Of a DNA stretch of 64,000 nt, positions 7,280 through 51,872 are shown one piece after another (position 1 is the stretch's first letter; every line of letters begins with the position of its first letter). The DNA lies in the NCBI RefSeq assembly GCF_022809715.1, contig NZ_CP094460.1, forward strand, positions 186,001-250,000, written 5' to 3'. The notes under the pieces were generated by a model, which was given only the letters and a program-made list of their open reading frames with translations, was not told the DNA's origin and did not search any database. This DNA comes from Burkholderia pyrrocinia. Lineage in GTDB: Bacteria; Pseudomonadota; Gammaproteobacteria; Burkholderiales; Burkholderiaceae. The position numbers and the translations under genes are program-made.

Positions 7280-7713
7280 CGTTGAGATTCTCCACGCAAG
7301 TGATTCATCGTTATTTGTTGCGGATTGGAGAATAGCTCAGTGCCATCCACGCAAGAAAGCTTAAAAAATAAAGTGTCTCGAAAAGGTAACAGCGTGGAAA
7401 AGTCCATATATATCAAGCACATCAACGACTGTTCCTGTTTTTGAAATAGTTGACAATTGCTGCGGCGCGATTGTTTCAATGCTTGATGCACATTGCGGCA
7501 GACGCGCCGTTTCGGCCGGTTGGAGCAGCGAAATGAGCGCTTGCAAACGTTTGCTGTTGCAACTGCGAACGCGCCGACGTACGAGAAACGCGTCAACGCC
7601 GCGCGAATGCGCGGCGGACAGCATGGTTGCCAGGAGTCGGGCGGATGTGCGAGGGGGCATTGGCGGCGCGCGCGATGCCGGCGCGCAGCCGCTTTGCGGA
7701 GGAGGCGGGTGAA
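7280..7713. other. Porin upstream region, AT-rich in its first half
   Basis: These 434 bases separate two minus-strand genes. The half next to the porin (7340-7460) is distinctly AT-rich, with runs such as TATATATGG on the minus strand, and probably contains the porin promoter and regulatory leader, but no confident promoter can be drawn. Open frames here are Arg-rich and unsupported. Confidence 0.4.
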
Positions 7714-17905: not shown

Positions 17906-18001
17906 GGAAGGCATTCGTATCCGGTGGTACGGCCGGGCTTCAAATCCGGTTGGGGGTGTCAGACACTCCCGGGTAGGTTCGACTCCTGCTGCCTTCCGCC
18001 A
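17906..18001 (+). tRNA. selC: tRNA-Sec (anticodon TCA)
   Basis: The acceptor stem is eight base pairs, GGAAGGCA (17906-17913) with TGCCTTCC (17990-17997), followed by G and an encoded CCA. The anticodon TCA is at 17940-17942 within CTTCAAA. The long variable arm and GGTTCGACTCC T arm match E. coli selC closely. Total length is 96 bases. It starts 31 bases after selB, so it may share the operon transcript. Its 3' end is also an island attachment site. Confidence 0.97.
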
Positions 18002-27016: not shown

Positions 27017-27838
27017 TTACTTTCGACGGCCCGTATGTCCGCGCCGCTCAGGCGCGGCCGCGTCGTACACCCGCAGCGAGCGGTAGCCGCGGAACGCCCC
27101 TTCCTGCAGACGCGAGTGCGCGCCGGGTTCGAGCATGAGGCCGGGCATGCGGGCGAGCAGCGTTTCGAATACGACGGCCAGCTGCATGCGTGCGAGCGCG
27201 GCGCCCAGGCATCCGTGCGAACCGGCACCGAATACGAGGCCGCCGTGCGCACGATCGAGACGGATGTCGCCCGGCCCGGCGAATTCGTCGGGATCGCGGT
27301 TCGCGGCGGCGGCGACCACGGCGACGACATCGCCTTTCACCATGCGGAGCCCGTCGAGTTCGACGTCGGCGCGCGCGAAGCGAATCATCACGTGCACGGC
27401 CGGTTCGATCCGCATCAGTTCGCGAAGCGCGAGCGGCACGCGCCGCGGCTCCTGCACGAGCGCTTGCCACAGATCGCGGCGCGCCAGCGCCTGCGCGAAC
27501 GTGTTGCCCAGCGACAGCATGGTCGTGCCGTAGCCCGCGATGAACGTCAGCAGCACATTGGCGAGCAACTGGCGGCGCGCGAGCGCCGGGCGCGTGCCGC
27601 CGGCCTGCAGCACGGCGCACACGGTATCGAGATGCACGTCCAGCTCGTCGACGAAACGCCGTGTCTGTGCGACGGCCAGCGCGTGGTCCGCAGGCCCGAT
27701 CGGCATCGCGCTGATCAGCCGGATCGGCCCCATCGACTGAGCCTGCAGGCGCGGCGCGTGCACGGGGTCGATGCCCAGCAGTCGGCATGCCGCGAGCGCC
27801 GGCAGGCGCTGCGCGATGTGCTCGACGAGGTCGAAGCG
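27017..27838 (-). pseudogene. Cytochrome P450, 5' end deleted
   Basis: The frame holds the C-terminal ~270 residues of a bacterial P450: an I-helix-like segment (LLTFIAGYGTTMLSLGN), ELMRIEPAVHVMIRFA carrying the E-x-x-R motif, and the haem loop FGAGSHGCLGAALAR with its Cys ligand. A normal P450 has ~400 residues. Upstream the coding homology runs to 27838 and hits a stop at 27839-27841 exactly where repeat and IS-like sequence begins. The GTG at 27763 is internal, not a start. The gene has therefore lost its first ~130 codons and cannot make a full enzyme. Confidence 0.8.
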
Positions 27839-28557: not shown

Positions 28558-29778
28558 TCACGTAGTCGCGTCGTTGATTTTTGGCAGCCAGGCAAACGCG
28601 ATTGTCACCAGCGTGACGCCGACGACGAGCATCGGCACCACCATTGGCCACGCGCCCAGTTGATAGCGCGGATCGGTGAAAGCCGCTGCCGTCTGTCCCA
28701 CGCTGAAAGCGAAGAACATCATGATGAAGCCAGACCAGGATACCGCGCGACCCGCAAGATGAGGCAGGCTGCTGACCGCCCCCGCCTGCCCGCATGGCTG
28801 ATGGATCCCGTGGCCGAGGCAATACACGCCATGCCCCGCGAGCAGCGGCCAGATGCTCCCGGGAAGCAACGCGCAGCCCACCGCCTGAATCACCGCGCCG
28901 GAGAGGCTCAACGTTGCGCCTTGTCGCACCGTTCGCAGCATGCTCTGACGTCGCAACAGCAGGCGGCAGCCATACGTACTCAGGACATAGACGAACGTAC
29001 CGCTCGCCGGTATCCAGCCATATCGCTGGGGCGACAGGCCGAGATGCCGGATGTAGATTGCGGGAGAGAGCAATAGAAAGCAGAACATGCCGGTGTACGT
29101 CGAGGCGGCCAGCAACGCCCATACCCTGAACGTGGCATTGCCGAATATCTCGCGCACGTCCCGGATCGAGCCTCGGCTCGAAGCGATTCTGGCGAAGCTT
29201 TCCTCGAAGCCGTACCAACACATGACGAGCAGCCCGAACGCATACAGGCTCATCCCCGCGAGCACCCATCGCCATCCGGCCAGCTGCGTGACATACGCGC
29301 CGAGAATCGGCGCGAGGAACGCCATCATCCCCATTCCCATGAAACCACGCGCCATCACGTACGGGCCATCGGCTGCCGAATACCGGTCGCGCACCGTCGC
29401 GCGCGCGCATACCAGGATCGCGGCCATGGCAAAGCCCTGCATCGCGCGAGCGGCTACCAGCAGCGCTGCGGTTGAAGCGAGCGCAGCCGCGAGCGCTGCA
29501 AGCGCATAGAGCGCCAGGCCACTCAGCAACACGGGGCGGCGGCCGTATCGGTCGGAAAGACTGCCCATCGGCAATTGCCCGATACCGAATATCAATGCGA
29601 AAACCGTGAGGCTGACGCTGGCAGAGCCCAGCGTTGCGGCGATTTCAGGCAGCGCCGGCAGGTAACTGTCGGTCGCCACCGGCTGGGCCGCCAGCAGAAG
29701 CGGCAACATGAGCGCGAAGTTCAGGCGAGCAGGGCGCGTGGTGTCCGGCATGACGGTTTTCGGTACGGTATCGGGCAT
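28558..29778 (-). CDS. Bcr/CflA-family MFS drug efflux transporter
   Basis: 406 residues with 12 predicted helices. DSYLPALPEIAATLG near the N-terminus and GQLPMGSLSDRYGRRPVLL (MFS motif A, with the GxLSDRxGRR loop) identify the Bcr/CflA proton-drug antiporter group. Members pump out bicyclomycin, chloramphenicol or sulfonamides, but the substrate here is not known. ATG 29778 and an internal ATG at 29751 both lack a good ribosome binding site. It sits alone downstream of the IS scars, in the same direction as the operon that follows upstream. Confidence 0.85.
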   Translation of the reverse strand: MPDTVPKTVMPDTTRPARLNFALMLPLLLAAQPVATDSYLPALPEIAATLGSASVSLTVFALIFGIGQLPMGSLSDRYGRRPVLLSGLALYALAALAAALASTAALLVAARAMQGFAMAAILVCARATVRDRYSAADGPYVMARGFMGMGMMAFLAPILGAYVTQLAGWRWVLAGMSLYAFGLLVMCWYGFEESFARIASSRGSIRDVREIFGNATFRVWALLAASTYTGMFCFLLLSPAIYIRHLGLSPQRYGWIPASGTFVYVLSTYGCRLLLRRQSMLRTVRQGATLSLSGAVIQAVGCALLPGSIWPLLAGHGVYCLGHGIHQPCGQAGAVSSLPHLAGRAVSWSGFIMMFFAFSVGQTAAAFTDPRYQLGAWPMVVPMLVVGVTLVTIAFAWLPKINDATT

Positions 29779-29874: not shown

Positions 29875-31302
29875 CTAGCTGCCGACGGATCCTGGCACGT
29901 GTTCGCGCACGATGCGATTGCGCGACATCGCCGCGACGCGCAGCCGGTCGTATTCTGCCGTGTCGACCGGTTGAGCGTTCGCTCGTCCCAGGTCGTTCAT
30001 AGGGACACGATGGGTCTCGCGTGCGCTCAAGGCTGCGAGCGACGCAATCACGGTGATGCCGAACGCGATCGCACCGACGATCAGCCAGACGTGGTGTCCG
30101 CCGGGCGGCGCGACCGCCGTGAACAGAGCCGGCAGCATCGCCGTGGCTGCGGTACCGAGGTTCTGCGCGATCGCCATTGCCGAGACGCGGGTGCGGGTCG
30201 GGAAGAGTTCCGGATAAAAGGCGGGAAATACGGCGTTGTAGCCCTGATACACGACACCCCACATGAGCATCGACATCGCGAATGCGAGCGGCACGTTCCG
30301 GATGCTGATCGCATACAGGTAGGCGAACGCGAGCAGCCCGGCGGCCAGCGAGCCGACGATGATCGGCGGCCGGCGTCCGACCCGGTCGGACAGGTTGCCG
30401 ACGAACGGAATCACGATCATCGCAACGATATTGCCCACCACCGTGATCCAGAGATAGATATCTTTCTGGAATCCGATTCCATACGCCGGCTGGACCGCAT
30501 AGGCTGCGCCGAAGATCGTGGCGACGACCGGAATCACGTTCATCATCGACATGCACGCGACGCGCACCATGTCGGGAAGGTGGTGCCTGAAAGCGTCGGC
30601 AACGGGCGAGCCGGCTTGCGACCGGTTGCGTACCGCTTCGTCGAAGGCCGGCGACTCGTCGACCTCGCGGCGAATGATCAAGCCCGCAACGATGACCAGC
30701 GCACTCAGCAGGAACGGAATGCGCCAGCCCCAGCTATCGAATTGCGCGGACGGCATGTAGTAGGCGAGCGGCAGGAACACGGCGGCGGCCAGCACCTGCC
30801 CGGCCTGCACGCCCTGTAGCGTGAAGCTGACGAAGTATCCGCGTCGACCGAACGGCGCGTGCTCCAGGATCATCGAGCTCGCGCCGGTGATCTCGCCGGC
30901 CACGGCGAAACCCTGCAGCAGGCGAAGCGTCACCAGCAATGCCGGCGCGATCAGCCCGGCTTGCTGATAGGTCGGCAGGAGGCCGACTCCGACGGTCGAG
31001 ATTCCCATCAGGAACATGCAGAAAAGCAGGACGGTTTTCCGTCCGCGCGTGTCGCCGAGATGGCCCAGCACGAACGCGCCGATCGGGCGGGACACATAGC
31101 CGACACCGTAAGTGGCCAGCGACGCGATGATGGCTGTCGTGGGGCTGCCGTGCGGAAAGAATATCTGCGGGAAGATCAGCGCCGATGCCGTGGCGTAGAT
31201 GAAGAAATCGTAGTATTCGAGCACCGAGCCGATCCAGCCGCTGATGGCGGCTTTTCTCGATTGGTGCCTGCCCCGGGGCTCGTCTCGCAAGGTCGTGGTC
31301 AT
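29875..31302 (-). CDS. MHS-family MFS transporter (shikimate/dicarboxylate type)
   Basis: 475 residues, 12 helices. The opening GWIGSVLEYYDFFIYATASA and the loop GHLGDTRGRKTVL are typical of the metabolite:H+ symporter group (ShiA, KgtP, ProP). RLLQGFAVAGEITGASSMI is another family marker. It likely imports the growth substrate of the operon. ATG 31302 has GGAG nine bases upstream; the frame open to 31428 lacks this. A 207-base gap separates it from the aroQ-like gene, with a hairpin just after that gene's stop. Confidence 0.86.
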   Translation of the reverse strand: MTTTLRDEPRGRHQSRKAAISGWIGSVLEYYDFFIYATASALIFPQIFFPHGSPTTAIIASLATYGVGYVSRPIGAFVLGHLGDTRGRKTVLLFCMFLMGISTVGVGLLPTYQQAGLIAPALLVTLRLLQGFAVAGEITGASSMILEHAPFGRRGYFVSFTLQGVQAGQVLAAAVFLPLAYYMPSAQFDSWGWRIPFLLSALVIVAGLIIRREVDESPAFDEAVRNRSQAGSPVADAFRHHLPDMVRVACMSMMNVIPVVATIFGAAYAVQPAYGIGFQKDIYLWITVVGNIVAMIVIPFVGNLSDRVGRRPPIIVGSLAAGLLAFAYLYAISIRNVPLAFAMSMLMWGVVYQGYNAVFPAFYPELFPTRTRVSAMAIAQNLGTAATAMLPALFTAVAPPGGHHVWLIVGAIAFGITVIASLAALSARETHRVPMNDLGRANAQPVDTAEYDRLRVAAMSRNRIVREHVPGSVGS

Positions 31303-31479
31303 CGTCGTCTCCAGATATTGATATGTGTGCCGGGCAACGCGGGTGATGCGGGGAGTCGTCACTGCCCGATGTATCGACTCCGTTGTGTGACCTGACCGAG
31401 GCCGATCGATACGACGCGCGGCGAGCAACCGCGGTGCGCAACGCCGTGCACCCGGCAGCGGTTGCGCATGTGCGTCGGT

Positions 31480-31502
31480 CCCGCATCGGCAGCCGATACG
31501 GG
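31480..31502 (-). terminator. Hairpin after the aroQ-like gene
   Basis: CCCGCATCGGC (31480-31490) and GCCGATACGGG (31492-31502) are inverted copies with one mismatch. It lies seven bases past the aroQ-like stop and lacks a T run, so it may attenuate or stabilise the mRNA before the transporter gene. Confidence 0.35.
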
Positions 31503-31509
31503 AATCGGC

Positions 31510-31953
31510 CTATTCCTCGCCGAGCGCCGAGACCGCGGCCCTCAGCGCCAGCAGATAGCTTTGAACACCGAAACCGCAAATCTGCCCGCTGACGATCTCG
31601 GCCAGGACGGAGTGATGCCGGAACGGCTCGCGTGCATGAATGTTGGACATGTGCAGTTCGACGATCGGGCACGTGAGGATGGCAAGGGCATCGCGAATGC
31701 CGTAGCTGTAATGCGTCCATGCGCCCGCGTTGATCAGCACCGCATCCTGGCGTTCCTCGAAGGCGCGATGAATGCGCTCGCACATCGCTCCTTCGCTGTT
31801 TGTCTGGAACGAATCCACCTGTACACCCAGTTCCTCCGCCAGCCCTTGCAGCCGTGCATCGATCTGTGCGAGCGTGATCGTCCCGTACTGTGCCGGGTCG
31901 CGCTTGCCGAACATGTTGTGATTGATGCCGTGCAGCATCAGGATCTTCTTCAT
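31510..31953 (-). CDS. aroQ: Type II 3-dehydroquinate dehydratase-like protein
   Basis: 147 residues, the standard size of dodecameric type II dehydroquinases, which interconvert 3-dehydroquinate and 3-dehydroshikimate. Catalytic positions are kept: Asn in HGINHN, Lys-Arg and Tyr in FGKRDPAQYG, Asn and His in LINAGAWTHYSYGIRDA, and His/Arg in ELHMSNIHAREPFRHHS. The loop HGINHNMFGKR departs from the usual NGPNLNLLGxRE. ATG 31953 has GGAG six bases away. A biosynthetic copy is expected elsewhere, so this one is probably catabolic or acts on a related ring acid. Confidence 0.85.
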   Translation of the reverse strand: MKKILMLHGINHNMFGKRDPAQYGTITLAQIDARLQGLAEELGVQVDSFQTNSEGAMCERIHRAFEERQDAVLINAGAWTHYSYGIRDALAILTCPIVELHMSNIHAREPFRHHSVLAEIVSGQICGFGVQSYLLALRAAVSALGEE

Positions 31954-31972
31954 GCGAATCTCCATTGCGTGT

Positions 31973-32809
31973 TCAATCAAAGGGCACGGCCAGCCGATCG
32001 ATCACCGAACTGGTCTCGGGGCGCACGCCGCGCCACCACGCGAACGCTTCGGCCGCCTGCTCGACCAGCATGCCGACGCCGTCCGCGATTCCGTGTACGC
32101 CTGCGTTTTTCGCGAGCCGGAGAAACGGCGTCAGACGCTTGCCGTATGCAAGTTCGTAGGCCGTGCCGGCCGGACTGAACACGCTCGGCGGGACCGGCGG
32201 CAGGTCGCCGGTCAGGCTGGCCGACGTCGCATTGACGACCAGGTCGAAACGCCCCATCCGTGCGAGGTCTGCGTAGCCGCCGGCAACGAGCGGACCGCGC
32301 CCGGCAACTTGCGCGACCAATGCGCGCGCCTTGTCGACGTCGCGATTCGCGATGACCAGTTCGGCCGGTCCGGCTTCGAGGAACGGTAAAAGCGCGCCGC
32401 GTGCCGCGCCGCCTGCACCGAGCACCAGGACACGCTTGCCGGCCATCGGCAGATTGAGGTTCGCTTCGATATCGCGAACCAGTCCGATGCCGTCGAAGTT
32501 GTCTGCCAGGATGCGGCCGCCGTCGAACTTGAGCGCGTTGGCCGCGCCCGCGAGCTGCGCACGCTCGCTGCGTTCGTCCGACATCGCGAACGCGTCGAGC
32601 TTGAACGGCGCGGTTACGTTGATGCCCTTGCCGCCGCCCTCGAAAAACGCACGAACCGCGGCAGCGAAAGCGCCTGCCGGCTCGACGGGCCCCTCGATGG
32701 CCGTATAGCTGAGGTCCTGCCGCGTCTCCTGCGCGAAAAGGCCGTGAATCAGCGGGGATTTCGTGTGTCCGATCGGATTGCCGATCACCGCGTACTGGTC
32801 GGTCATCAT
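31973..32809 (-). CDS. aroE: Shikimate dehydrogenase-like oxidoreductase
   Basis: 278 residues. The substrate-binding loop AVIGNPIGHTKSPLIHGLF opens the protein, with the catalytic Lys in INVTAPFKLDAF and Asp in ADNFDGIGLVRD, then the NADP-binding VLVLGAGGAARGAL. In canonical AroE the loops read NTDG and AVNTL; here they read NFDG and AANAL, so a threonine is replaced by phenylalanine. This suggests a paralogue of the SdhL/quinate type with shifted substrate use. Its ATG overlaps the preceding CoA-transferase stop (ATGA), so the two are translated together. Confidence 0.85.
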   Translation of the reverse strand: MMTDQYAVIGNPIGHTKSPLIHGLFAQETRQDLSYTAIEGPVEPAGAFAAAVRAFFEGGGKGINVTAPFKLDAFAMSDERSERAQLAGAANALKFDGGRILADNFDGIGLVRDIEANLNLPMAGKRVLVLGAGGAARGALLPFLEAGPAELVIANRDVDKARALVAQVAGRGPLVAGGYADLARMGRFDLVVNATSASLTGDLPPVPPSVFSPAGTAYELAYGKRLTPFLRLAKNAGVHGIADGVGMLVEQAAEAFAWWRGVRPETSSVIDRLAVPFD

Positions 32810-34026
32810 TGGCTCGCTTTTGAATAGAGGACGCCGTCGGCCTGCATCGCATCGATTTCGGCCGAATCGAACCCGAGGGAGCGCGCGACTTCCGCGTTGT
32901 GCTGCCCGAGATCGGGCGCGACGTCGCGAATCGTCGTATCGCAATCGGAAAACCGGAACGGCAGGTTGGGCAGGCGCAGTGTCCCGTAGCGCGGATGCTG
33001 TTGCTCGACGACCATGCCTCTCGCCTGGATCTGCGGATCGTTCAATACCTCGTCGATGCGCTGCACCTTCGCGCACGGAACGTCGATGCCGTCCAGCAGT
33101 TCGAGCACCGACGCGACGGAACGCGCGGCCACCCACGGCTCGACCACCGACAGAATCTCCGCGCGGTGCGCGTTGCGGCCGGTGCTGTCGTGAAACCGTG
33201 TGTCGGCGCCGAAATCCGCCGGGCCGCCGTGCGTCGCGATCAGATCGGCGAAGCGTTTCCACGCGTCGTCGACTTGCGCGGCGATCACGAGATCGCCGTC
33301 CGCGGCGCGGAATACGCCGTAGAGCGTCGACGTCGGCATGTCGTGCCCGGTCTGCTCGGGCAGCACGCCCTGCAGCGTGTAGCACTGCACCGCATATTCG
33401 TGCATCGATACCAGCGTGTCGTACAGCGCCATGTCGATGTGTTGCCCGCGGCCGCTCTTCACGCGCCCGAGCAGCGCGGCGTTGATGGCCGCGACCGCAT
33501 GAATGCCGGTGTACATGTCGCCGAGCGAGATGCGCAGCAGCGGCGGCCGCTCGCCCGGCGTGCCGACCATCTGCATGATTCCGCTCTTGGCTTCCGCGAT
33601 CAGCCCGAAGCCTGCGCGATGCGCATCGGGACCGGTATGCCCGTACGCCGAAATCGAACAGTAGACGAGGCGCGGATTGCGCGCCGACAGTTCGGCATAG
33701 CCGAGCCCGAGCTTGTCCAGCGCGCCCGGCCGATAGTTCTCGATGAACACGTCGGCGGAGTCGCACAGCCGCTGCATGAACGCCTTGCCGCGCGCGTCCT
33801 TCATGTTGACGCTCACGCCGCGCTTGCCCATGTTGAGCTGCAGGAAGTAGCCGCTTTGCTGGTCGTCGAGCACGGTCGCGTGCTGGCGTCCGGCGTCGCC
33901 TGACCCGGGGCGCTCGACCTTGATGACTTCGGCGCCGAGCGCCGCGAGACAGCGCCCGACATACGGCCCGGCAAGGAAGTGGCTGTAGTCGACGACGCGA
34001 ATGCCTTCGAGTGGGCGAGCCTGCAT
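32806..34026 (-). CDS. Class III CoA-transferase (CaiB/BaiF family)
   Basis: 406 residues. LEGIRVVDYSHFLAGPYVGR and LAALGAEVIKVERPGSGD are the standard N-terminal segments, and the catalytic aspartate that forms the acyl anhydride is in RISLGDMYTGIHA. RGQHIDMALYDTLVSM and GMVVEQQHPRYG are conserved near the dimer interface. It moves CoA from a donor such as succinyl-CoA to a carboxylic acid, activating it. It starts one base inside the MaoC stop (TAATG). With MaoC it forms a CoA-dependent activation and hydration pair. Confidence 0.9.
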   Translation of the reverse strand: MQARPLEGIRVVDYSHFLAGPYVGRCLAALGAEVIKVERPGSGDAGRQHATVLDDQQSGYFLQLNMGKRGVSVNMKDARGKAFMQRLCDSADVFIENYRPGALDKLGLGYAELSARNPRLVYCSISAYGHTGPDAHRAGFGLIAEAKSGIMQMVGTPGERPPLLRISLGDMYTGIHAVAAINAALLGRVKSGRGQHIDMALYDTLVSMHEYAVQCYTLQGVLPEQTGHDMPTSTLYGVFRAADGDLVIAAQVDDAWKRFADLIATHGGPADFGADTRFHDSTGRNAHRAEILSVVEPWVAARSVASVLELLDGIDVPCAKVQRIDEVLNDPQIQARGMVVEQQHPRYGTLRLPNLPFRFSDCDTTIRDVAPDLGQHNAEVARSLGFDSAEIDAMQADGVLYSKASQ

Positions 34027-34484
34027 TACAGTGCCTCCGGGCGGCGCGGCACCATCAGGCGATGCTCGCCGTGTTGAACGACCTGACCGTCCTGATTGAT
34101 CAGCTCCGACGGCAGCACGACGATGCCCCAATCCGGGCGACTCTTGCTGGCCCGCATCGAACCGACGCGGAATTTCACGTGCAGCACGTCGCCGACCTTG
34201 ATCGGCAGCAGGAAATCCCAGGTCCAGCCGAGCGACATGCCCGGCAGAAAGCGATAGTCGCTCTGCGTCTTCAGGCCGTCGGCGATGGACAGGCCGAACA
34301 GTCCGTGTGCGACGAGGCAGCCGAAATGGCTCGCGTTTGCGTATTCCTCGTCCACGTGGACGGGCGTATGGTCGCCGGTGAGGTCGGCGTACGCGAGAAT
34401 GCGCTCCTTGGTCACGATGTAGCTCGGGCTCGTGCACGTGTCACCCTCGCGGGCGTCGTCCCAGTATTTCTCGACGATCGTCAT
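34026..34484 (-). CDS. MaoC-like hydratase
   Basis: 152 residues of hot-dog fold. The hydratase-2 motif is clear: LTGDHTPVHVDEEYANAS, with the catalytic Asp and His, followed by GCLVAHGLFGLSIADGL. Family members add or remove water on enoyl-CoA or mesaconyl-CoA thioesters. Its ATG overlaps the stop of the VOC gene by three bases. Position directly before a CoA-transferase suggests it acts on the CoA ester made by that enzyme. Confidence 0.88.
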   Translation of the reverse strand: MTIVEKYWDDAREGDTCTSPSYIVTKERILAYADLTGDHTPVHVDEEYANASHFGCLVAHGLFGLSIADGLKTQSDYRFLPGMSLGWTWDFLLPIKVGDVLHVKFRVGSMRASKSRPDWGIVVLPSELINQDGQVVQHGEHRLMVPRRPEAL

Positions 34485-34879
34485 GGCCGTGCCTCCGCGC
34501 GCGGGTTGATCGCCAGTGCCTGCGCGACGCAGGAAGCCGGCCTGGCCTGGATCAGTTCGACGGCGAGCCCGTCGGGCAGACGAAGCCAGTTCCGTCCCTG
34601 CGGCATCTCCGTCACGCCGAATCGTTGTGCCGCGGCCAGTGCGGCCTCCAGGTCCTCGCACATCACGCCGAGATGGGCGAGCCGGCCTTCCGGGCCATCG
34701 TGTTCCGGCGCGTGGATGAACTGCAGGCCGCCGAGCGTCCAGTACTGCCGCGGTGCGTCGAGCGTGCCGTCCACTTCGCGCAGGGTCATGCCGAGCACGT
34801 CCTCGAAGAAGCGGATGTGCCAGCGGATGTCCTTCACCCAGATCGCTACGTGTTCCAGATAGGCTTTCGAGGCACTCAT
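34481..34879 (-). CDS. VOC-superfamily protein (glyoxalase/dioxygenase fold)
   Basis: 132 residues. YLEHVAIWVKDIRWHIRFFE starts one beta-alpha-beta-beta-beta unit, with a His metal ligand near the start, and LAHLGVMCEDLEAALAAA starts the second. LRLPDGLAVELIQA supplies the terminal Glu ligand. Such proteins are metal-dependent lyases, isomerases, epimerases or ring-cleaving dioxygenases; the reaction here is open. It overlaps the genes on both sides (ATGA at 34876-34879), which ties it to the operon. Confidence 0.82.
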   Translation of the reverse strand: MSASKAYLEHVAIWVKDIRWHIRFFEDVLGMTLREVDGTLDAPRQYWTLGGLQFIHAPEHDGPEGRLAHLGVMCEDLEAALAAAQRFGVTEMPQGRNWLRLPDGLAVELIQARPASCVAQALAINPRAEARP

Positions 34880-35826
34880 GCTGCAGCCTCCTCGCGCTGG
34901 CGATCGGCCATCGCGCGCTCGAGCCCCTTGATGCAGGCGACGAGCGTGGCATTCACCGGGGTCGGCACGCCGTAGCGCTGCCCGCAGCGCACGACCGAAC
35001 CGTTGATGAAGTCGATCTCGGTGATCGAACCCTTCTCCAGGCTTTGCAGCATCGACGTTTTGAAGGACGCGGGCAGCCCCTCGGCGGCGAGCGTCCAGGC
35101 CTGTTCGGGATCGGTCATCGACAGCTTCACGCCGGCTGCCTGCGCCGCCGCGATCGCCTCGGCCACGGCCGCGAGCGACGTCGCCTTCAGCAGCGCCTCG
35201 TCATAAAGCTGCCCGTAGGTGAGGCCGGTCAGCCCCGTCAGCGCACCCGTCGCGACATTTACCAGCAGCTTGTCCCACATCGTGCCGACGATGTTGTCGC
35301 TGATCGTCGTGGCGAGGCCGGCGGCATTGAATGCGGCGGCGATCGCCTGCACGCGCGGTGTGACGCGGCCGTCGAGTTCGCCGATATAGGTGGTTTTGCC
35401 GATCACGCCGGATTCGATGTGACCCGCGCCGCGCAGCACGCCGCCGACGTAGGTCTTGCCCGCGAGGACGCGCTCGCGGCCGACGACGTCGATCAGGATG
35501 TCCTCGTGCCCGAGGCCGTTCTGCAGCGACAGCACGGCCGTATCCGGCCCCACCAGCGATTGGGCGCCGCGGATGGCCGCATCGGTCTGGAACGACTTGA
35601 CCAGCACCACCACCAGGTCGGCCGCGCCGACATCGGCAACCCGAGTCGTCGCGTGAACGCGGACGTGGCGGGTGCCGCCCGCGTCGTCGACGCGCAGGCC
35701 GTCACCGCGCATCGCATCGACGTGCGCGGGCGAGCGGTCGATCAGCCAGGTCTCGTGGCCGCCTTGGGTAAGGGTGGCGCCGATCGCGCAGCCCAGCGCG
35801 CCAGCCCCCAGAATCGCTATTTTCAA
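34876..35826 (-). CDS. Ketopantoate reductase-family oxidoreductase (PanE/ApbA-like)
   Basis: 316 residues. The dinucleotide motif ILGAGALGCAIGATL opens the protein, VVVLVKSFQTDAA holds the NADPH-side lysine, LSLQNGLGHEDIL is the PanE signature and SLEKGSITEIDFINGSV the C-terminal substrate region. It should reduce or oxidise a 2-keto/2-hydroxy acid. The start is taken as TTG 35826, because AAGGAG lies seven bases upstream; the in-frame GTG at 35853 would put that site inside the gene. It is the first gene of the operon. Confidence 0.85.
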   Translation of the reverse strand: MKIAILGAGALGCAIGATLTQGGHETWLIDRSPAHVDAMRGDGLRVDDAGGTRHVRVHATTRVADVGAADLVVVLVKSFQTDAAIRGAQSLVGPDTAVLSLQNGLGHEDILIDVVGRERVLAGKTYVGGVLRGAGHIESGVIGKTTYIGELDGRVTPRVQAIAAAFNAAGLATTISDNIVGTMWDKLLVNVATGALTGLTGLTYGQLYDEALLKATSLAAVAEAIAAAQAAGVKLSMTDPEQAWTLAAEGLPASFKTSMLQSLEKGSITEIDFINGSVVRCGQRYGVPTPVNATLVACIKGLERAMADRQREEAAA

Positions 35827-35907
35827 TGGCTTCTCCTTGACGTATGGCACCACGATAGGAGTCGCCGCTCATGCCGACAATGCAATGGATACAATGGCGT
35901 CATTGCC
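35827..35907. promoter_or_regulatory. Divergent control region with CAATG palindrome
   Basis: Only 81 bases separate the PanE-like gene from the divergent LysR gene. CAATG-GCGT-CATTG (35892-35905) is a perfect inverted repeat, and further ACAATG repeats lie around it. This is the expected place for a LysR operator overlapping both promoters. Confidence 0.55.
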
Positions 35908-36840
35908 ATGGACAATAACGCCGCGATGCCAGCCGATCTGCCCGACCTGAAGCTGCTTCAGCTTTTCGATCTCCTGTACGACATGCGCAGCGTCACGCGC
36001 GTCGCCGAGCAACTGGGCCAGAGTCAGCCGACGGTCAGCATCTGGCTCGGGCACTTGCGGGAACACCTGCACGATCCGCTCTTCATCCGGACGCCCGGCG
36101 GCATGGCGCCGACGCCGCAAGCCGACGCGCTGATCGGGCCATGCCGGGAAATTCTCGAATCCCTGCGGCGCTTCACGGCATGGGAGATCGCGTTCGATCC
36201 TGCGACGGCCCAGCGACGCTTTCGCATCTGCATGACCGACGCGAGCCACATCACGCTGCTCCCGCGGCTACTGGCCCATGTCCGCGCGCAGGCGCCCGGC
36301 GTCCGGCTGGAAGCCGCACGGATCGACGGCAATACGGAGCGCGCGCTCGAATCAGGCGAAGCCGATCTCGCGATCGGCTATGTGCCGTGGCTAGGCGGCG
36401 GCATTTATCAGCAGAAGCTGTACGACCAGGACTGGGTATGTCTGGCCAACCGGCATCACCCAAGGATTCGCGGTCGCCTCGGGGCGAAGCAGTATCGTTC
36501 CGAAGGACATGTCGCCATTACCGCGGGAACCGGGGCGCAACTCCTCGAACAGGCGCTGCGGCAGGCGCGCATCGAGCGAGACGTGGTGCTGGAGTTACCG
36601 GGTTTTCTGGGGCTGGGTGCGATCGTCCAGACGACCGACCTGATCACGACGCTACCCCGTCATATCGGCCAGACACTGGCTCAGGCGAGCGATCTGGCGG
36701 TTCATGCGTGCCCGATCCCGGTCGAAGGCTTCGCGGTACGGCAGCATTGGCATGCGCGCTATCACCACGAGGCCGGCAACCGGTGGCTGCGCGGCGTCGT
36801 GATCCAACTGTTCGGCGCCTCGCATCCGTCCGCAGCGTAG
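35908..36840 (+). CDS. LysR-family transcriptional regulator
   Basis: 310 residues. The helix-turn-helix reads SVTRVAEQLGQSQPTVSIWL, followed by LREHLHDPLFIRTPGGMAPT, typical of LysR. The effector domain begins near residue 100 (FRICMTDASHITLLPRLLAH). Divergent placement, 81 bases from the CoA/shikimate-like operon, marks it as that operon's regulator. ATG 35908 is chosen as the first in-frame start after the gap; ATG 35926 is possible. It is the last intact gene before the right attachment site. Confidence 0.88.
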   Translation: MDNNAAMPADLPDLKLLQLFDLLYDMRSVTRVAEQLGQSQPTVSIWLGHLREHLHDPLFIRTPGGMAPTPQADALIGPCREILESLRRFTAWEIAFDPATAQRRFRICMTDASHITLLPRLLAHVRAQAPGVRLEAARIDGNTERALESGEADLAIGYVPWLGGGIYQQKLYDQDWVCLANRHHPRIRGRLGAKQYRSEGHVAITAGTGAQLLEQALRQARIERDVVLELPGFLGLGAIVQTTDLITTLPRHIGQTLAQASDLAVHACPIPVEGFAVRQHWHARYHHEAGNRWLRGVVIQLFGASHPSAA

Positions 36841-45449: not shown

Positions 45450-47630
45450 TCAGGCCCGCGACGCGCTCGGGTGGTCGGCCACCACGTACGCCGATGCCTG
45501 CTTCGTGCCGTCCGGCTTCGTCTGCAGGTAGACGCCCTGGATTTCCGGCTCGAAACCCGGCAGCGCGTTGATCCCGGCTTCGAGCGCGCGGAAGTAGTCG
45601 AGCGCCGGGCCGCCCCACGCTTCGCCGGGCACCACGCAGAAGATGCCGGGCGGATAGGGCAGCGCGCCTTCGGTCGCGATCCGGCCTTCGATGCGATCGA
45701 GCGTGACGAGTTCGACGTTGTTGCGGATCAGCTCGGCATTCGCGGCCTGCGGCAGCATCGCCTGCTTCGGGAACTGCGCACGCCGGAACATCTGCTTCTG
45801 CAGATGCTTCATGTCGTGGCTGCGATAGAAATCGTGCATGCGCTGGCACAACTGCCGCAGGCGCATGTTGCCGTACAGCTCCGGATACGCTTCGCACAAC
45901 GACGGGATCGCTTCGCGCAGCGGCGTGTCCTGGTCGAGGTGGCGTTCGAACTGCGCGAGGTGCGCGATCAGATGCTGCAGCTTGCCGAGGCTTTCCGACG
46001 GCGTGAGCAGGAACAGGATCGTGTACAGGTCAGCCTTCTCGGGCACGACGCCGTGCTCGCGCAGGTAGCGCGCGAGGATCGGCGCCGGCGCGCCGAACGG
46101 CGCGTACTCGTGCGTGTCGCGATCGATGCCGGGCGTCGTCAGCAGCAGCTTGCACGGATCGACGAAGTACTGGTCGTTCGCATAGCCTTCGAAGCCGTGC
46201 CACGCGTCGGCCGGATGGAAGCGGAAGAAGCGCAGGTCGTCGACGATCTGCTCGGTCGGGTAGTCGGCCCACGGGCGGCCGTCGACATGCTGCGGAACGA
46301 ACGGGCGGATCTGGCGGCAGGTCTTCAGCAGCAGCTTGCGTGCATCGACGCCGTGCGCGACGCAGTCGCGCCACAGGCGCTTGCCGGCCGGGCCCGCATG
46401 CATCTGCGCGTTGACGTCGAGCGCCGCGAACATCGGGTAGAACGGGCTCGTCGACGCATGGATCATGTACGCGTTGTTGAAGCGCCGGTGATCGCAGAAG
46501 CGCTTCTGGCCTTCGATGTGGCTGTCCTTCTTGTGGATCTGCGACGTCTGCGAGAAGCCGGCCTGCTGCTTGTGCACCGACTGCGTGACGAAGATGCCGG
46601 GATCGTCGGGGCCGAGCGTCAGCATCAGCGGCGAGCAATCCTGCATCATCGGGATGAACTGCTCGTAGCCGACCCACGCCGAATCGAACAGGATGTAGTC
46701 GCACAGATGCCCGATCCGGTCGACGATTTCCCGCGCGTTGTAGATCGTGCCGTCGTAGGTGCCGAGCTGGATCACCGCGAGCCGGAACGGGCGCGGCAGG
46801 TCGGCGCGCTCGGGCGCGACGTCGCGGATCGCGTCGCGAATGCGTGTTTCGTCGAGCGCCGCGCTGTCGACGCCGCCGATGAGGCCCCACGCGTTGCGCG
46901 CGGTTTCGAGGTAGACCGGCCGCGCGCCGGACACCACGAGCGCGCCGAGGTGCACCGACTTGTGGTTGTTGCGATCGAACAGCACGAGATCGTCGGGCGC
47001 GAGCAGCGCGCTCGTGACGACCTTGTTCGACGTCGACGTGCCGTTCAGCACGAACCAGGTCTTGTCGGCGTTGTAGATCCGCGCGGCGTTGCGCTGCGCT
47101 TCCAGCGCGGGGCCTTCGTGGATCAGCAGGTCGCCGAGCCGGACGTCCGCGTTGCAGAGGTCGGCGCGAAACAGTGTCTCGCCGAAGAAGTCGACGAACA
47201 TCCGGCCGAGCGGATGATTCGAGAAGAACTGGCCGCCCTGGTGGCCGGGGCAGTCGAACTCGACGTAGCCGCGCTGCACGTATTCGCGCATGACCTTGAA
47301 GAACGGCGGCAGCAGGTTCTCGCTGTAGATATCGGCGGCGGCTGAAATCTGCCGGCCGTAATAGTGGCGGCTGCCGTGCCCGAGCTGGATCACGCCGCTC
47401 GCGCTCGGCAGGACCGACGGCGGCACTTCCTGGTCGGGCTCGACCGCGACGAAGAACGGAATCGCGAAGCCGGTTCTTTCGACGGCTTTCAGGATTTTTT
47501 GCGCCGAATCGATTCCGACCACGATTGCCGCGATATTCGTGAAATCGGTCTGAAATACGTCGACCTGTTCGTGCGTGGTGAGGAAGGCGCCAATCAGCGC
47601 CGGCTCGACTGCGATTTTCAACAGGCTCAC
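45450..47630 (-). CDS. speC: Ornithine decarboxylase
   Basis: 726 residues of fold-type I PLP decarboxylase, with a response-regulator-like N-terminal wing, PLP core and C-terminal domain. Lys354 in VTQSVHKQQAGFSQTSQ binds PLP, and FNNAYMIHASTSPFYPMF is nearly the E. coli SpeC/SpeF sequence. It makes putrescine from ornithine. The start is GTG 47630, because GGGAGA sits about eight bases upstream; the ATG at 47669 has none. It may be the acid-inducible type (SpeF) rather than the biosynthetic SpeC; sequence alone does not settle this. PotE is encoded just beyond the next gene. Confidence 0.92.
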   Translation of the reverse strand: MSLLKIAVEPALIGAFLTTHEQVDVFQTDFTNIAAIVVGIDSAQKILKAVERTGFAIPFFVAVEPDQEVPPSVLPSASGVIQLGHGSRHYYGRQISAAADIYSENLLPPFFKVMREYVQRGYVEFDCPGHQGGQFFSNHPLGRMFVDFFGETLFRADLCNADVRLGDLLIHEGPALEAQRNAARIYNADKTWFVLNGTSTSNKVVTSALLAPDDLVLFDRNNHKSVHLGALVVSGARPVYLETARNAWGLIGGVDSAALDETRIRDAIRDVAPERADLPRPFRLAVIQLGTYDGTIYNAREIVDRIGHLCDYILFDSAWVGYEQFIPMMQDCSPLMLTLGPDDPGIFVTQSVHKQQAGFSQTSQIHKKDSHIEGQKRFCDHRRFNNAYMIHASTSPFYPMFAALDVNAQMHAGPAGKRLWRDCVAHGVDARKLLLKTCRQIRPFVPQHVDGRPWADYPTEQIVDDLRFFRFHPADAWHGFEGYANDQYFVDPCKLLLTTPGIDRDTHEYAPFGAPAPILARYLREHGVVPEKADLYTILFLLTPSESLGKLQHLIAHLAQFERHLDQDTPLREAIPSLCEAYPELYGNMRLRQLCQRMHDFYRSHDMKHLQKQMFRRAQFPKQAMLPQAANAELIRNNVELVTLDRIEGRIATEGALPYPPGIFCVVPGEAWGGPALDYFRALEAGINALPGFEPEIQGVYLQTKPDGTKQASAYVVADHPSASRA

Positions 47631-48139
47631 GCGAATTCTCCCGTAAATGTGCGGAAACGGGAGCCGCATTCACGCCGGCGCGCAATCCGCGTAATCCGAT
47701 ACGCGCCGCAGCCGATTGAAACGCTCCCGCGAATGCTGAATGCCGAATGCGCACCGCACGAATCAGCCTTGCGCAGCGAGGCTCGGCTGCCGACGGTCAG
47801 TGCGCGACGCAGCCGATCGTAGCAACAAAATCCGGCGAATTCAATCGACCGGAAACGGCAATGTCATTGAAAGATGAGTAGGATCAAACAAGCGGGAATT
47901 GGCGTGCTGCAATGCACATAAAAATGATCCAATTATGAAATCCGATTTGAAAGGGATCGACGATTTTGCCGAATCGTCGGCTTTTCATCGAAAGGCATCC
48001 ATGGCATAGTCGGCATCCGAATCGGATGGCGAATCAAACCGGAATTGCGAGCGTCTCATGTCGCCGACCGTGGCCTGCTGTCCGCGTGCTCGTGAGACGA
48101 ACAACACCAACGAAGCATCGGAACAGCGAGGGCAACATC
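47631..48139. other. Long AT-rich divergent control region
   Basis: 509 bases between the divergent decarboxylase genes. The middle (47830-48000) is notably AT-rich for this genome. It should contain both promoters and possibly long leaders. In enterobacteria the speF transcript has a regulatory leader peptide (speFL); I looked for a similar short ORF and could not defend one. Confidence 0.45.
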
Positions 48140-50440
48140 ATGAATACATCCACCGGAGGCGTTCGTCGTCTCGGCATGCGTGCGCTGCTGGTCGACGACG
48201 AAATCGCGCAGGAAACGGCGACCGGGCGCGCGGTCCGCACACTGAGCGCGGAGCTCGCGCAACGCGACATCGACGTGCTCACGGCGACATCCGCCGACGA
48301 TGCGATCATGCTGATCCGTTCCGATCCGTCGATCCAGTGCGTGCTGCTCGACTGGGATCTCGGCGTGGATGGCCACGGGCCGTCCGAGGCGGTGGTCGAA
48401 GCGATCCGGCATCGCAACGCCAACGTGCCGATCTTCCTGCTGGCCGACCGCAGCGTCGCGTCGTCGGTGCCGTCCGCGGTCATGGGCCAGGTCGACGATT
48501 TCGTGTGGCTGCTCGAGGATACGGCCGACTTCATCGGCGGGCGCATCCACGCGGCGATCGAACGCTATCGCTCGACCGTGCTGCCGCCGATGTTCGGCGC
48601 GCTCGCGAAGTTCTCGCGCGTCTACGAATACTCGTGGCATACGCCCGGCCACACGGGCGGCACGGGCTTCCTGAAGTCGCCGGTCGGCCGCGCGTTCTTC
48701 GAATACTTCGGCGAATCGCTGTTCCGCTCCGACCTGTCGATCTCGGTCGGCGAACTCGGCTCGCTGCTCGACCACTCGGGCCCGATCGGCGAAAGCGAGC
48801 GCTACGCGGCGCGCGTGTTCGGTGCGCATCGCACGTATCACGTGACGAACGGCTCGTCGACGTCGAACCGCATCATCCTGATGGCGAGCGTGAGCCGCGA
48901 CCAGATCGCGCTGTGCGACCGCAACTGCCACAAGTCGGCCGAGCATGCGATCACGATGTCGGGCGCGATCCCGACGTACCTGGTACCGACGCGCAACCGC
49001 TACGGGATCATCGGGCCGATCGCGTCCGAGCGCCTCACGCAGGCGGCGATCCGCGAGGCGATCGCATCGAACCCGCTCGCGGCCGGGCTTGCCGATCGCC
49101 AGCCGAAGCACGCGATCGTCACGAACTCGACTTACGACGGCCTCTGCTACAACGTCGCGCGCGTCGAGGAACTGCTCGGCGCGAGCGTCGACCGCCTGCA
49201 CTTCGACGAAGCGTGGTACGGCTACGCGCGCTTCAACCCGATCTACCGCGACCGCCATGCGATGCACGGCGACCCGCGCGACCATCGTGCGGACCGGCCC
49301 ACGGTGTTCGCGACGCAGTCGACGCACAAGCTGCTGACCGCACTGTCGCAAGCGTCGTACATCCACGTGCGCGACGGCCGCAGCCCGATTCCGCATGCTC
49401 AGTTTAACGAAACGTTCATGATGCACGCGTCGACGTCGCCGAACTACGCGATCATCGCGTCGAACGACGTCGCGGCCGCGATGATGGACGGCCCCGGCGG
49501 CGAAGCGCTGACGCACGAGTCGATCGAGGAGGCCGTCGCATTCCGGCAGATGATCGCGCGGATGAACAACGAGTTCGACGCGAAGGGAGACTGGTTCTTC
49601 GAATGCTGGCAGCCCGACACCGTGCTCGAGGCACGCACGGGCCGCACGCTGCCGTTCCACGATGCGCCGCCCGAGCTGCTCGCGAGCGATCCGTCGTGCT
49701 GGGTGCTGCGCCCCGGCGCGCAATGGCACGGCTTCGGCAATATCGAGGACGGCTACTGCATGCTCGATCCGATCAAGGTGTCGATCGTCACGCCGGGCGT
49801 CGCGCCGGCCGGCGGCCTGATGCCGGTCGGCATTCCGGCGAGCGTCGTCACGGCCTATCTCGATGCGCGCGGGATCGTCGTCGAGAAGACGACCGATTTC
49901 ACGATCCTGTTCCTGTTCTCGATCGGCATCACGAAGGGCAAGTGGGGCTCGCTCGTCAGCGCGCTGTGCGACTTCAAGCGCGACTACGACGCGAACCTGT
50001 CGCTCGACATGGCGATTCCGTCGCTCGCGAAGGAACACGGCGCACGTTATGCGGGCATGGGGCTGAAGGACCTGGCCGACACGATGTTCGCGGCGATGGA
50101 GCAGCTCGGCACGACGCGGCTGATGTCGGAGGCGTTCTCGATCCTGCCGAAGCCGGAGATGAGCCCGGTGCGCGCATACGAGCATCTCGTGCAGGGCCGC
50201 GTCGAGCAGGTCACGCTCGACGAGCTGGCCGGTCGCACGGTCGCCACCGGCGTCGTGCCGTATCCGCCGGGCATTCCGCTGCTGATGCCCGGCGAGAACG
50301 CGGGGCCGGCAGGCGGCCCGGTGCTCGGCTACCTGAAGGCGCTCGAAGCGTACGACCGCCGTTTTCCGGGCTTCGCGCACGACACGCACGGCGTAGAAGT
50401 CGAGGACGGCACGTACCGCGTGTACTGCCTGACGGCCTGA
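48140..50440 (+). CDS. adiA: Biodegradative arginine decarboxylase (AdiA-like)
   Basis: 766 residues. The N-terminal receiver-like domain begins ALLVDDEIAQETATG. The PLP lysine is Lys397 in FATQSTHKLLTALSQASYIH. FDEAWYGYARFNPIY, FNETFMMHASTSPNYAII and LRPGAQWHGFGNIEDGYCML follow E. coli AdiA closely, closer than to lysine decarboxylases. The family converts arginine to agmatine while consuming a proton. GAGGG precedes ATG 48140. The gene directly precedes a PotE-like antiporter, 46 bases on. Lysine decarboxylase activity cannot be ruled out without assay. Confidence 0.88.
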   Translation: MNTSTGGVRRLGMRALLVDDEIAQETATGRAVRTLSAELAQRDIDVLTATSADDAIMLIRSDPSIQCVLLDWDLGVDGHGPSEAVVEAIRHRNANVPIFLLADRSVASSVPSAVMGQVDDFVWLLEDTADFIGGRIHAAIERYRSTVLPPMFGALAKFSRVYEYSWHTPGHTGGTGFLKSPVGRAFFEYFGESLFRSDLSISVGELGSLLDHSGPIGESERYAARVFGAHRTYHVTNGSSTSNRIILMASVSRDQIALCDRNCHKSAEHAITMSGAIPTYLVPTRNRYGIIGPIASERLTQAAIREAIASNPLAAGLADRQPKHAIVTNSTYDGLCYNVARVEELLGASVDRLHFDEAWYGYARFNPIYRDRHAMHGDPRDHRADRPTVFATQSTHKLLTALSQASYIHVRDGRSPIPHAQFNETFMMHASTSPNYAIIASNDVAAAMMDGPGGEALTHESIEEAVAFRQMIARMNNEFDAKGDWFFECWQPDTVLEARTGRTLPFHDAPPELLASDPSCWVLRPGAQWHGFGNIEDGYCMLDPIKVSIVTPGVAPAGGLMPVGIPASVVTAYLDARGIVVEKTTDFTILFLFSIGITKGKWGSLVSALCDFKRDYDANLSLDMAIPSLAKEHGARYAGMGLKDLADTMFAAMEQLGTTRLMSEAFSILPKPEMSPVRAYEHLVQGRVEQVTLDELAGRTVATGVVPYPPGIPLLMPGENAGPAGGPVLGYLKALEAYDRRFPGFAHDTHGVEVEDGTYRVYCLTA

Positions 50441-50486
50441 ACGAGCGACCGGCCGCGCGGCGGCATCACATCGAAGGATCGAGATC

Positions 50487-51872
50487 ATGGAAAACGCAGC
50501 GAGCATGTCCGCCGCGGCCCCGGCGGCCGCAGCGAAGAACCGGATGAACGTCTGGCAGCTCACCATCCTCACGGCGGTCAACATGATGGGCTCCGGCATC
50601 ATCCTGCTGCCGGCGAAGCTTGCGCAGGTCGGCACGATCTCGCTGCTGTCGTGGATCGTCACGGCCGGCGGCTCGCTCGCGCTGGCCTATGCGTTCGCGC
50701 GCTGCGGGATGTTGAGCCGCAAGCCGGGCGGGATGGGCGGCTACACGGAATACGCGTTCGGCAAGGCCGGCAACTACATGGCGAACTACACGTACGGGCT
50801 GTCGCTCGTGATCGCCAACGTCGCGATCGGCGTCACGGCGGTCGGCTATGGCACCGTGCTGTTCGACGCGACGCTGTCGCCGCTGCAGACGGGCCTGTGG
50901 ACGATCTTCCTGCTCGTGCTGACGACGGTCGCGAACTTCGGCGGCTCGCGCATCACCGGCCGGATCGGCTCGGTGACCGTATGGGGCGTGATCATTCCGG
51001 TCGTCATCGTGTCGCTGATCGGCTGGTTCTGGTTCAGCGGCGCGACCTGGGGCGCTGCGTGGAATCCGCACGGCATGTCGTTCGGGCCGGCCGTCGGCAG
51101 TTCGATCGCGGTGACGCTGTGGGCGTTCCTCGGGCTCGAATCGGCGTGCGCGAACTCGGATGCGGTGGAGAACCCGGAGCGCAACGTGCCGATCGCCGTG
51201 CTCGGCGGCACGATCGCATCGGCGATCTTCTACATCGTGTCGACCAACGTGATCGCGGGGATCGTGCCGAACGCGATCCTCGCGAAGTCGAACGCGCCGT
51301 TCGGCATCGCGTTCGCGACGATGTTCACGCCGACCGTCGGCACGATCGTCACCGCGCTGATGGTGATCGCGTGCATCGGATCGCTGCTCGGCTGGCAGTT
51401 CACGGTCGCGCAGGTGTTCAAGAGCTCGGCGGACGTCGGCTACTTCCTGCCGGTGTTCGCGCGTGCGACGCGCACGGGCACGCCGATCGTCGGCATGGTG
51501 ATCCTGCTCGTCGCGCAGGTCGCGCTGGCGCTGATGACGATCAGCCCGGAGCTGAGCAGCCAGTTCCAGAAGATCGTCGATCTCGCGGTCGTCACGAACC
51601 TCGTGCCGTACGTGATGTCGATGGCCGCGCTGATCACGATCCAGAAGGTCGCGAAGGTGCCGCCGGCCAAGGCGCTGGTGACGAACGTGATCGCGATGGT
51701 CGCCACCGCGTACAGCTTCTATGCGCTCGTCAGCTCGGGCGAGCAGGCGCTGATGCTCGGCGGCCTGTGCGTGTTCCTGGGCTGGACGCTGTTCGGCTTC
51801 GTCAGCGCGCGCTTCTACCAGATGGAAGTCGACGCGCACGTGAAGGAACCGGGGAAGTCGCTGCAGGCGTGA
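50487..51872 (+). CDS. potE: Putrescine-ornithine antiporter (PotE-like)
   Basis: 461 residues, 12 helices, APC superfamily. WQLTILTAVNMMGSGIILLP has the GSGI substrate loop, GGMGGYTEYAFGKAGNYMAN and LWAFLGLESACANSDAVENP match E. coli PotE almost position for position. It exchanges putrescine for ornithine, or imports putrescine with H+. Its natural partner is the ornithine decarboxylase on the other side of the AdiA-like gene. That gene lies between them and reads in the same direction as potE. Confidence 0.9.
   Translation: MENAASMSAAAPAAAAKNRMNVWQLTILTAVNMMGSGIILLPAKLAQVGTISLLSWIVTAGGSLALAYAFARCGMLSRKPGGMGGYTEYAFGKAGNYMANYTYGLSLVIANVAIGVTAVGYGTVLFDATLSPLQTGLWTIFLLVLTTVANFGGSRITGRIGSVTVWGVIIPVVIVSLIGWFWFSGATWGAAWNPHGMSFGPAVGSSIAVTLWAFLGLESACANSDAVENPERNVPIAVLGGTIASAIFYIVSTNVIAGIVPNAILAKSNAPFGIAFATMFTPTVGTIVTALMVIACIGSLLGWQFTVAQVFKSSADVGYFLPVFARATRTGTPIVGMVILLVAQVALALMTISPELSSQFQKIVDLAVVTNLVPYVMSMAALITIQKVAKVPPAKALVTNVIAMVATAYSFYALVSSGEQALMLGGLCVFLGWTLFGFVSARFYQMEVDAHVKEPGKSLQA

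Follow-up and report, generated by a model that had tools for sequence, protein, structure and literature searches.

A conserved LysR-linked operon of Burkholderia pyrrocinia joins shikimate-type and CoA-type enzymes and may serve the catabolism of a hydroaromatic acid

Plants are rich in the acids quinate and shikimate, for which the known bacterial route leads through the free acids to protocatechuate. A family III coenzyme A (CoA)-transferase encoded with a hydratase, and without a ligase, thiolase or acyl-CoA dehydrogenase, constitutes a CoA-recycling pattern, exemplified by the carnitine genes caiB and caiD: CaiB recycles CoA between product and substrate, a hydratase acts, and no ligase takes part. 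For Acinetobacter baylyi ADP1, the accessible part of one report attributes quinate use to 14 pca/qui genes acting via protocatechuate, and describes a 4-fold increase of a caiB gene beside the dca genes in quinate-grown cells, naming in that part no CoA branch of quinate metabolism (PMC4213383). The bad-ali pathway of cyclohexane carboxylate, as given in the available portion of its source, employs the ligase AliA, the hydratase BadK, BadH and the ring hydrolase BadI (PMC9795900). Here, we analyzed a block of eight genes at positions 29,875–36,840 of a 64,000-nucleotide window of Burkholderia pyrrocinia (the whole stretch under analysis, positions 186001–250000 of the second contig, NZ_CP094460.1, in a genome of three contigs and 7.69 Mb). 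Comparative analysis indicates that this block is a real, conserved, LysR-linked operon joining shikimate-type and CoA-type enzymes. As the original prediction had supposed, literature searches listed no described pathway for this gene set; they covered an open-access library from which most subscription papers are absent.

Pfam and NCBIfam bore out the initial assignment of one LysR regulator and seven genes to named families, with the regulator on the plus strand divergent from PanE-VOC-MaoC-CaiB-AroE-AroQ-MHS on the minus strand (locus counts refer to the combined set of 89 defined below):

35908..36840, plus strand: LysR-type regulator, divergent from the operon (Pfam HTH_1 and LysR_substrate; in 87/89 loci)
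34876..35826, minus strand: PanE/ApbA-family reductase, TTG start (PF02558/PF08546)
34481..34879, minus strand: VOC-fold protein (PF13669; alignment of 23 sequences, model and fold search)
34026..34484, minus strand: MaoC-type hydratase (PF01575; alignment of 19 sequences)
32806..34026, minus strand: CaiB/BaiF family III CoA-transferase (PF02515, 3e-117)
31973..32809, minus strand: AroE paralogue (NF001310, 332.3 bits, cut-off 221)
31510..31953, minus strand: AroQ, a type II dehydroquinase whose pocket motifs are altered (TIGR01088, 179.1, cut-off 169.85)
29875..31302, minus strand: MHS-type proton symporter that probably acts as importer (best NCBIfam models, below their cut-offs: metabolite/H+ symporter and shikimate transporter)

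Five successive junctions had been described as overlapping or touching. Four do overlap (PanE/VOC, VOC/MaoC and CaiB/AroE by 4 bp each, MaoC/CaiB by 1 bp), but at the fifth, AroE/AroQ, the genes lie 19 bp apart, and AroQ is separated from MHS by 207 bp. An in-frame ATG at ~35926 is a possible alternative start for LysR. Among the families assigned by Pfam and NCBIfam to the core, PanE-VOC-MaoC-CaiB-AroE, there were no acyl-CoA ligases, thiolases or acyl-CoA dehydrogenases.

A scan with AroE, from which the best 80 of 448 relatives were retained, placed CaiB before AroE in 80/80 loci and recovered the full core order in 79/80, the exception (L074) being a 3.8-kb contig with CaiB and AroE only. 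The nearest named loci, at 97% in AroE, include those of Burkholderia seminalis, B. cepacia and B. ubonensis. So that loci were not selected by AroE, genomes were also searched with CaiB, the panel centers being counted among the matches. These searches matched 45/150 genomes around the host, 16/120 around a Bradyrhizobium-like genome (its genus was inferred from a named plasmid carrying the same neighbors), 10/115 centered on a gammaproteobacterial genome (from two genera in the same family), 4/398 in a phylum panel and 1/369, the host itself, in a class panel. CaiB was accompanied by the four remaining core genes in 55/55 of the resulting loci L094–L148, where PanE was often clipped at the locus end. 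For one panel search, the loci read were the 30 delivered plus G1082, G964 and G971; the last two hold CaiB matches of 59–61% without the core.

The combined set comprised 89 CaiB-bearing loci of at least 9 kb, leaving out shorter loci, loci without CaiB, and L086, L090, L151 and L152 (CaiB without the core). The core is borne by soil and plant bacteria that are only distantly related: Burkholderiaceae, Massilia, Variovorax, Bradyrhizobium and one gammaproteobacterial family. The search for the same gene order in other genomes, proposed at the outset, thus found the core in order in 89/89 loci; with VOC identity falling as low as 51–54% across core loci, this constancy is more than chance. AroQ (46/89 loci) and MHS (26/89) lie outside the constant core. 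Distance-matrix correlations across 65 loci reached 0.73–0.91 for the core and LysR and 0.33–0.66 for AroQ, which agrees with co-inheritance, though species relatedness alone could produce these values.

The regulatory region is also shared among loci. The gap between LysR and PanE follows the pattern TATTG-N6-GCAATGAygNCATTGTA-NN-CATTGnATTG, plus a TATCGT, and in the window GCAATGAcgNCATTGTA is the sequence of this region that forms a candidate LysR target:

35878..35906, minus strand: conserved LysR-type operator, GCAATGACGCCATTGTATCCATTGCATTG, from pattern comparison across loci
35852..35857, minus strand: TATCGT, a putative -10-like element ~25 bp before PanE, retained in the majority of 25 aligned loci

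A strict CAATG-CATTG palindrome was found in 47/90 upstream regions, and a 24-base operator pattern in 61, 75 and 78 of the 89 loci at up to 2, 3 and 4 mismatches, respectively. The reversed pattern gave 0 matches, and eight shuffled patterns gave 0 at up to 3 mismatches and, at 4, one match in two of the eight. Where LysR lies apart from PanE (24 loci), a site was detected at the LysR promoter in 24/24 and at the PanE promoter in 21/24. In seven loci (L034, L038, L046, L050, L057, L059 and L068) the LysR site falls inside the gap between MHS and LysR; this operator would tie the importer to the core and is the best evidence that the importer belongs. The host genome holds a single site at up to 3 mismatches, and further regulon members in the host were rejected on this basis. 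A sigma-70 scan revealed no consensus promoter, and terminators were no more numerous than in shuffles.

The accessory genes around the core are interchangeable and largely of shikimate type. Counted anywhere in the 89 loci, LysR was present in 87, block-type AroQ in 46, any MHS importer in 26, Gfo/Idh in 13, a QuiA-like AroE in 11, Bcr in 10, canonical-type AroQ in six, an amino-acid-binding protein in three, AEC in three and QuiC in two. A Bradyrhizobium japonicum plasmid combines the core with a second AroE, an amino-acid-type ABC importer, AroQ and an inositol-dehydrogenase-like Gfo/Idh protein, and a Massilia putida plasmid with AroQ, a second AroE, a QuiC-family protein, AEC and MFS transporters and a porin; in G1082, QuiC and a QuiA-like gene lie close to the core. 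Because Bradyrhizobium and G1082 carry the canonical-type AroQ in place of the block type, the dehydroquinase step was recruited more than once. Since different accessory genes would perform hydroaromatic steps in different lineages, a hydroaromatic substrate is preferred.

The conserved residues of the block enzymes, whose roles we take from their families, fit active enzymes: N103, K186 and E270 in PanE (88 sequences), D170 within LGDMYTG in CaiB, invariant D38 and H43 in MaoC (19 aligned sequences), and the Tyr, Arg, His and Glu motifs of AroQ. AroE scores above the shikimate dehydrogenase family cut-off and retains K70 and D106, which we assume to be the catalytic Lys and Asp, with the T preceding the Asp replaced by F. 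Relative to the housekeeping copies, its Asp motif reads NFDG instead of NTDG and, at another position, VNT is replaced by ANA; in block AroQ, NPAAYTHTSVA is changed to NAGAWTHYSYG and GPNLNLLG to GINHNMFG. With catalytic motifs kept and pocket residues changed, both enzymes probably perform the same chemistry with a different substrate fit. The nearest solved structures are 3PWZ (shikimate dehydrogenase 3, 360 bits) for AroE and 6CV6 for AroQ. VOC has an invariant H10, Q53, H69 and E108 (23 aligned sequences), a putative metal site that presumably resembles the metal ligands of methylmalonyl-CoA epimerase. Its model (mean predicted local distance difference test score, 79.5) matches glyoxalase/FosA/TioX-type structures. 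In the profile search, lactoylglutathione lyases and FosA ranked ahead of human methylmalonyl-CoA epimerase (seventh, E 0.004), which was at rank 31 in Foldseek, and the structural Z table was headed by TioX, GloA2, bleomycin N-acetyltransferase and FosA3 (about 11). NCBIfam gave only a weak glyox_I match rather than TIGR03081, and VOC was absent from the TIGR03081 matches of its own genome. The reading of VOC as a clear methylmalonyl-CoA-type epimerase was rejected on the profile, Foldseek and Z-table rankings.

We tentatively read the block as a module under LysR control that catabolizes a hydroaromatic (cyclohexane or cyclohexene polyol) carboxylic acid, standing beside the canonical quinate/shikimate-to-protocatechuate route; this is quite possible, if short of probable. 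We infer function at the class level, with the substrate class firmer than the step order, and the sequence given below for the four CoA-side steps, with their directions, is a working hypothesis that is rather unlikely to hold as written. MHS would import the acid, and CaiB would shift CoA to it from a product thioester of the shikimoyl-CoA type, making a ligase unnecessary, in the manner of carnitine. VOC would epimerize or isomerize beside the thioester, MaoC would remove or add water across C1–C2, PanE would alter the oxidation state of a ring hydroxyl, and CaiB would release a shikimate-type acid. AroE would interconvert shikimate and 3-dehydroshikimate (DHS), AroQ would convert dehydroquinate to DHS, and QuiC, encoded elsewhere, would turn DHS into protocatechuate. 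Shikimate already possesses the conjugated double bond that a thioester hydratase needs. This, the CoA-recycling pattern, the AroE and AroQ steps leading to DHS, and the occurrence of QuiC in every core-bearing genome of two panels together favor a CoA-processed hydroaromatic acid that feeds DHS and protocatechuate.

The QuiC search covered the host-centered and Bradyrhizobium-like panels at E 1e-100 and 1e-60, and detected QuiC in 45/45 and 16/16 core-bearing genomes (61/61) versus 27/105 and 38/104 genomes without the core. Within the Bradyrhizobium-like genus the figures are 16/16 versus 47 of ~72 (five members, unlisted, were assumed), a hypergeometric value of 0.0004 with relatedness ignored. 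The host has housekeeping-type aroE (C1:610080, 51%) and aroQ (C1:603875, 50%) on contig 1, and a separate quinate locus at C2:1.78 Mb with MFS, QuiA-like, AroQ and QuiC genes; the QuiC-family gene (C2:1784684, 865 bits) is ~1.56 Mb from the block. Because of this locus, quinate or shikimate as the plain sole substrate is less likely. A main role as a backup for chorismate synthesis was rejected, since the host possesses the housekeeping pair and the pair at the QuiC locus, and the pocket changes of the block copies also oppose it. The catabolic role suggested by the original prediction is probable, given that seven loci have an importer gene at the core's operator. Its proposed substrate, a hydroxylated ring or a dicarboxylic acid, can be narrowed: the accessories favor a hydroaromatic acid, and itaconate, citramalate and other dicarboxylic acids are less likely because no CitE-type lyase is among the block matches and the scores of CaiB and MaoC fall far short of the curated cut-offs for these pathways.

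Several observations weigh against the hydroaromatic module. The VOC model is nearest in fold to glyoxalase/FosA types and not clearly to a CoA epimerase. No natural beta-hydroxyl acid was named that MaoC could convert to shikimoyl-CoA. The operator site is absent from 11/89 loci (L017, which begins inside PanE, L024, L025, L069, L085, L092, L149, L150, L153, L154 and L155); because the Bradyrhizobium and gammaproteobacterial loci are among these, the pattern is essentially restricted to Burkholderiales. PanE-side sites in loci with a distant LysR mostly have 3–4 mismatches. As for QuiC, the NCBI cut-off of 1200 bits was reached by no searched genome, and G984, one of the 45, shows the gene only in part. 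QuiC occurs in 64/65 genomes of the host's genus, so its co-occurrence is uninformative there, large soil genomes could explain its excess in the Bradyrhizobium-like genus, and it lies inside the core locus in only 2/89 cases. Finally, the tricarballylate genes tcuA and tcuB and a TcuC-like transporter gene are found near the core in four loci:

L087, 3979-7967: tcuAB and TcuC-like transporter
L066, 2763-6747: tcuAB and TcuC-like transporter
L040, 13852-17843: tcuAB and TcuC-like transporter
L053, 11167-15136: tcuAB and TcuC-like transporter

The leading alternative, which we consider rather unlikely, is a ring-opening route of the bad-ali kind. Shikimate would be made into shikimoyl-CoA (trihydroxycyclohexene-carboxyl-CoA), which MaoC would hydrate at C2, PanE would oxidize the product to a 2-oxo thioester, and VOC or an unlinked hydrolase would cleave the ring, bypassing protocatechuate. 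The block has hydratase and dehydrogenase families suited to this, and shikimoyl-CoA would be the trihydroxy analogue of cyclohex-1-ene-carboxyl-CoA, which is hydrated, oxidized and cleaved by BadK/BadH/BadI according to the accessible part of PMC9795900. A crotonase gene lies in the operon between AroE and an MHS gene in the Caballeronia loci L037 (10857-11645), L038 (10857-11645) and L068 (10869-11657; filed under Burkholderia turbans), and L069 has one following AroE (7692-8471). However, the best NCBIfam models for the L037 crotonase, the one tested, were DpgD, EchA19 and crotonobetainyl-CoA hydratase (200.6 bits, cut-off 500), all below their cut-offs, and BadI was not among the best 25 of its 73 matches; the crotonobetainyl-CoA hydratase match counts in favor of the hydroaromatic module. 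The core has no ring hydrolase or beta-oxidation genes, and the co-occurrence of QuiC also speaks against a bypass of protocatechuate.

Tricarballylate, aconitate, itaconate or a similar acyclic plant acid, with AroE and AroQ recruited for a look-alike, is a clearly improbable substrate. CaiB and MaoC families do serve such acids, and tcuA and tcuB occur near the core in the four loci listed above, but the mesaconate transferase model gave 259.2 of 700 bits and RipB/Ich 46.9 of 340 bits, and no CitE-like lyase appeared among the block's matches, so itaconate/mesaconate CoA degradation is not recognizable here. The accessories in other lineages are hydroaromatic, and the host gene of the CitB family (TIGR02484), which we take to be linked to TcuB, is distant (C2:1346003). 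It is slightly less probable still that the operon is a biosynthetic module for a hydroaromatic CoA starter or signal. This role would suit the occurrence of a related CaiB in three polyketide clusters that resemble one another, among which that of J. lividum includes an acyl-homoserine-lactone synthase, and the same-strand Bcr/CflA exporter downstream in 8/89 loci. It is opposed by the importer-type MHS at the shared operator, by a core without carrier protein or synthase (Pfam), and by five annotated core loci that, when read, contained no polyketide gene.

These polyketide clusters, on a J. lividum plasmid and in G964 and G971, encode the CaiBs of 59–61% identity together with a KS-type synthase, a condensation protein, NADH:flavin and quinone oxidoreductases, a QuiA-like dehydrogenase and a TIM-barrel protein, annotated as a sugar phosphate isomerase in J. 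lividum, the one cluster run against Pfam. Being related to one another, they count as one case, which speaks for a connection of this CaiB lineage with shikimate. In a CaiB tree rooted on a single outgroup, their CaiBs lie beside those of Bradyrhizobium, an indication of kinship only. The polyketide cluster in L086 (6796-15562), L151 and L152 (J. lividum and two Burkholderia), with its block-lineage CaiB, may use a hydroaromatic CoA unit. The broader idea is possible, albeit with considerable doubt: an undescribed CoA branch of hydroaromatic metabolism would run through shikimoyl-CoA-type intermediates, using CaiB, MaoC, VOC and PanE with its own AroE and AroQ, and polyketide clusters would have borrowed its CaiB lineage to load such acids. 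If true, several bacterial families would possess a CoA branch under its own regulation, which would bring in a new class of intermediates and give a job to a shikimate dehydrogenase subclass with a solved structure. It would also correct annotations that place these genes in pantothenate and chorismate synthesis by the labels 2-dehydropantoate 2-reductase, shikimate dehydrogenase and dehydroquinate dehydratase.

The flanks of the operon vary between genomes (18 loci compared in one listing). In the window, the open reading frames (ORFs) on either side look unrelated by reading, and the operon as a piece of a larger cluster was rejected. One neighbor is optional:

28558..29778, minus strand: Bcr/CflA-type efflux transporter (NCBIfam; near the core in 10/89 loci)

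This gene is downstream on the same strand in 8/89 loci and on the other side and strand in two. Near the core in L085 (2528-5423) and L092 (209-3104) (Bradyrhizobium, Variovorax), a crotonase gene adjoins an acetate-CoA-ligase-family gene. Elsewhere in the window, ORFs named by reading include an ordinary selenocysteine set (8776-11847, 14513-15952 and 17906-18001), in which a formate-dehydrogenase-like ORF stops at the TGA at 9364-9366 and continues in frame in the following ORF; a SelA-like ORF and a tRNA-Sec lie downstream of it. At 27017-27763, a cytochrome P450-like ORF of 248 amino acids probably lacks its N-terminal half, and 45450-51872 holds two large basic-amino-acid-decarboxylase-like ORFs and an amino-acid-transporter-like ORF.

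Among known systems, canonical quinate/shikimate catabolism (QuiA, AroQ/QuiB, QuiC) likewise has AroE- and AroQ-family enzymes, with a type II dehydroquinase by TIGR01088, and an MHS-type importer. The block differs in having no QuiC in the locus, the host QuiC locus being separate, and in adding CaiB, MaoC, VOC and PanE; QuiC and QuiA-like genes stand beside the core in L091 and L155. With carnitine caiB/caiD the block shares a CaiB-type transferase and a hydratase without a ligase, but the core has MaoC instead of a crotonase, none being present in the window block, and the carnitine CoA-transferase model gave 148.6 of 413 bits. An alicyclic acid carried as a CoA thioester, with hydration of a 1,2-double bond, would be common to the proposed route and to bad-ali as its partly available source presents it, although AliA, BadK, BadH and BadI were not among the block's families in Pfam and NCBIfam. 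The closest solved match of block AroE, with a likeness by sequence only, is 3PWZ, whose class name we take to be Ael1 and whose host P. putida. To our knowledge, the role of 3PWZ-class shikimate dehydrogenases is unsettled, and the same operon is carried by a gammaproteobacterial family.

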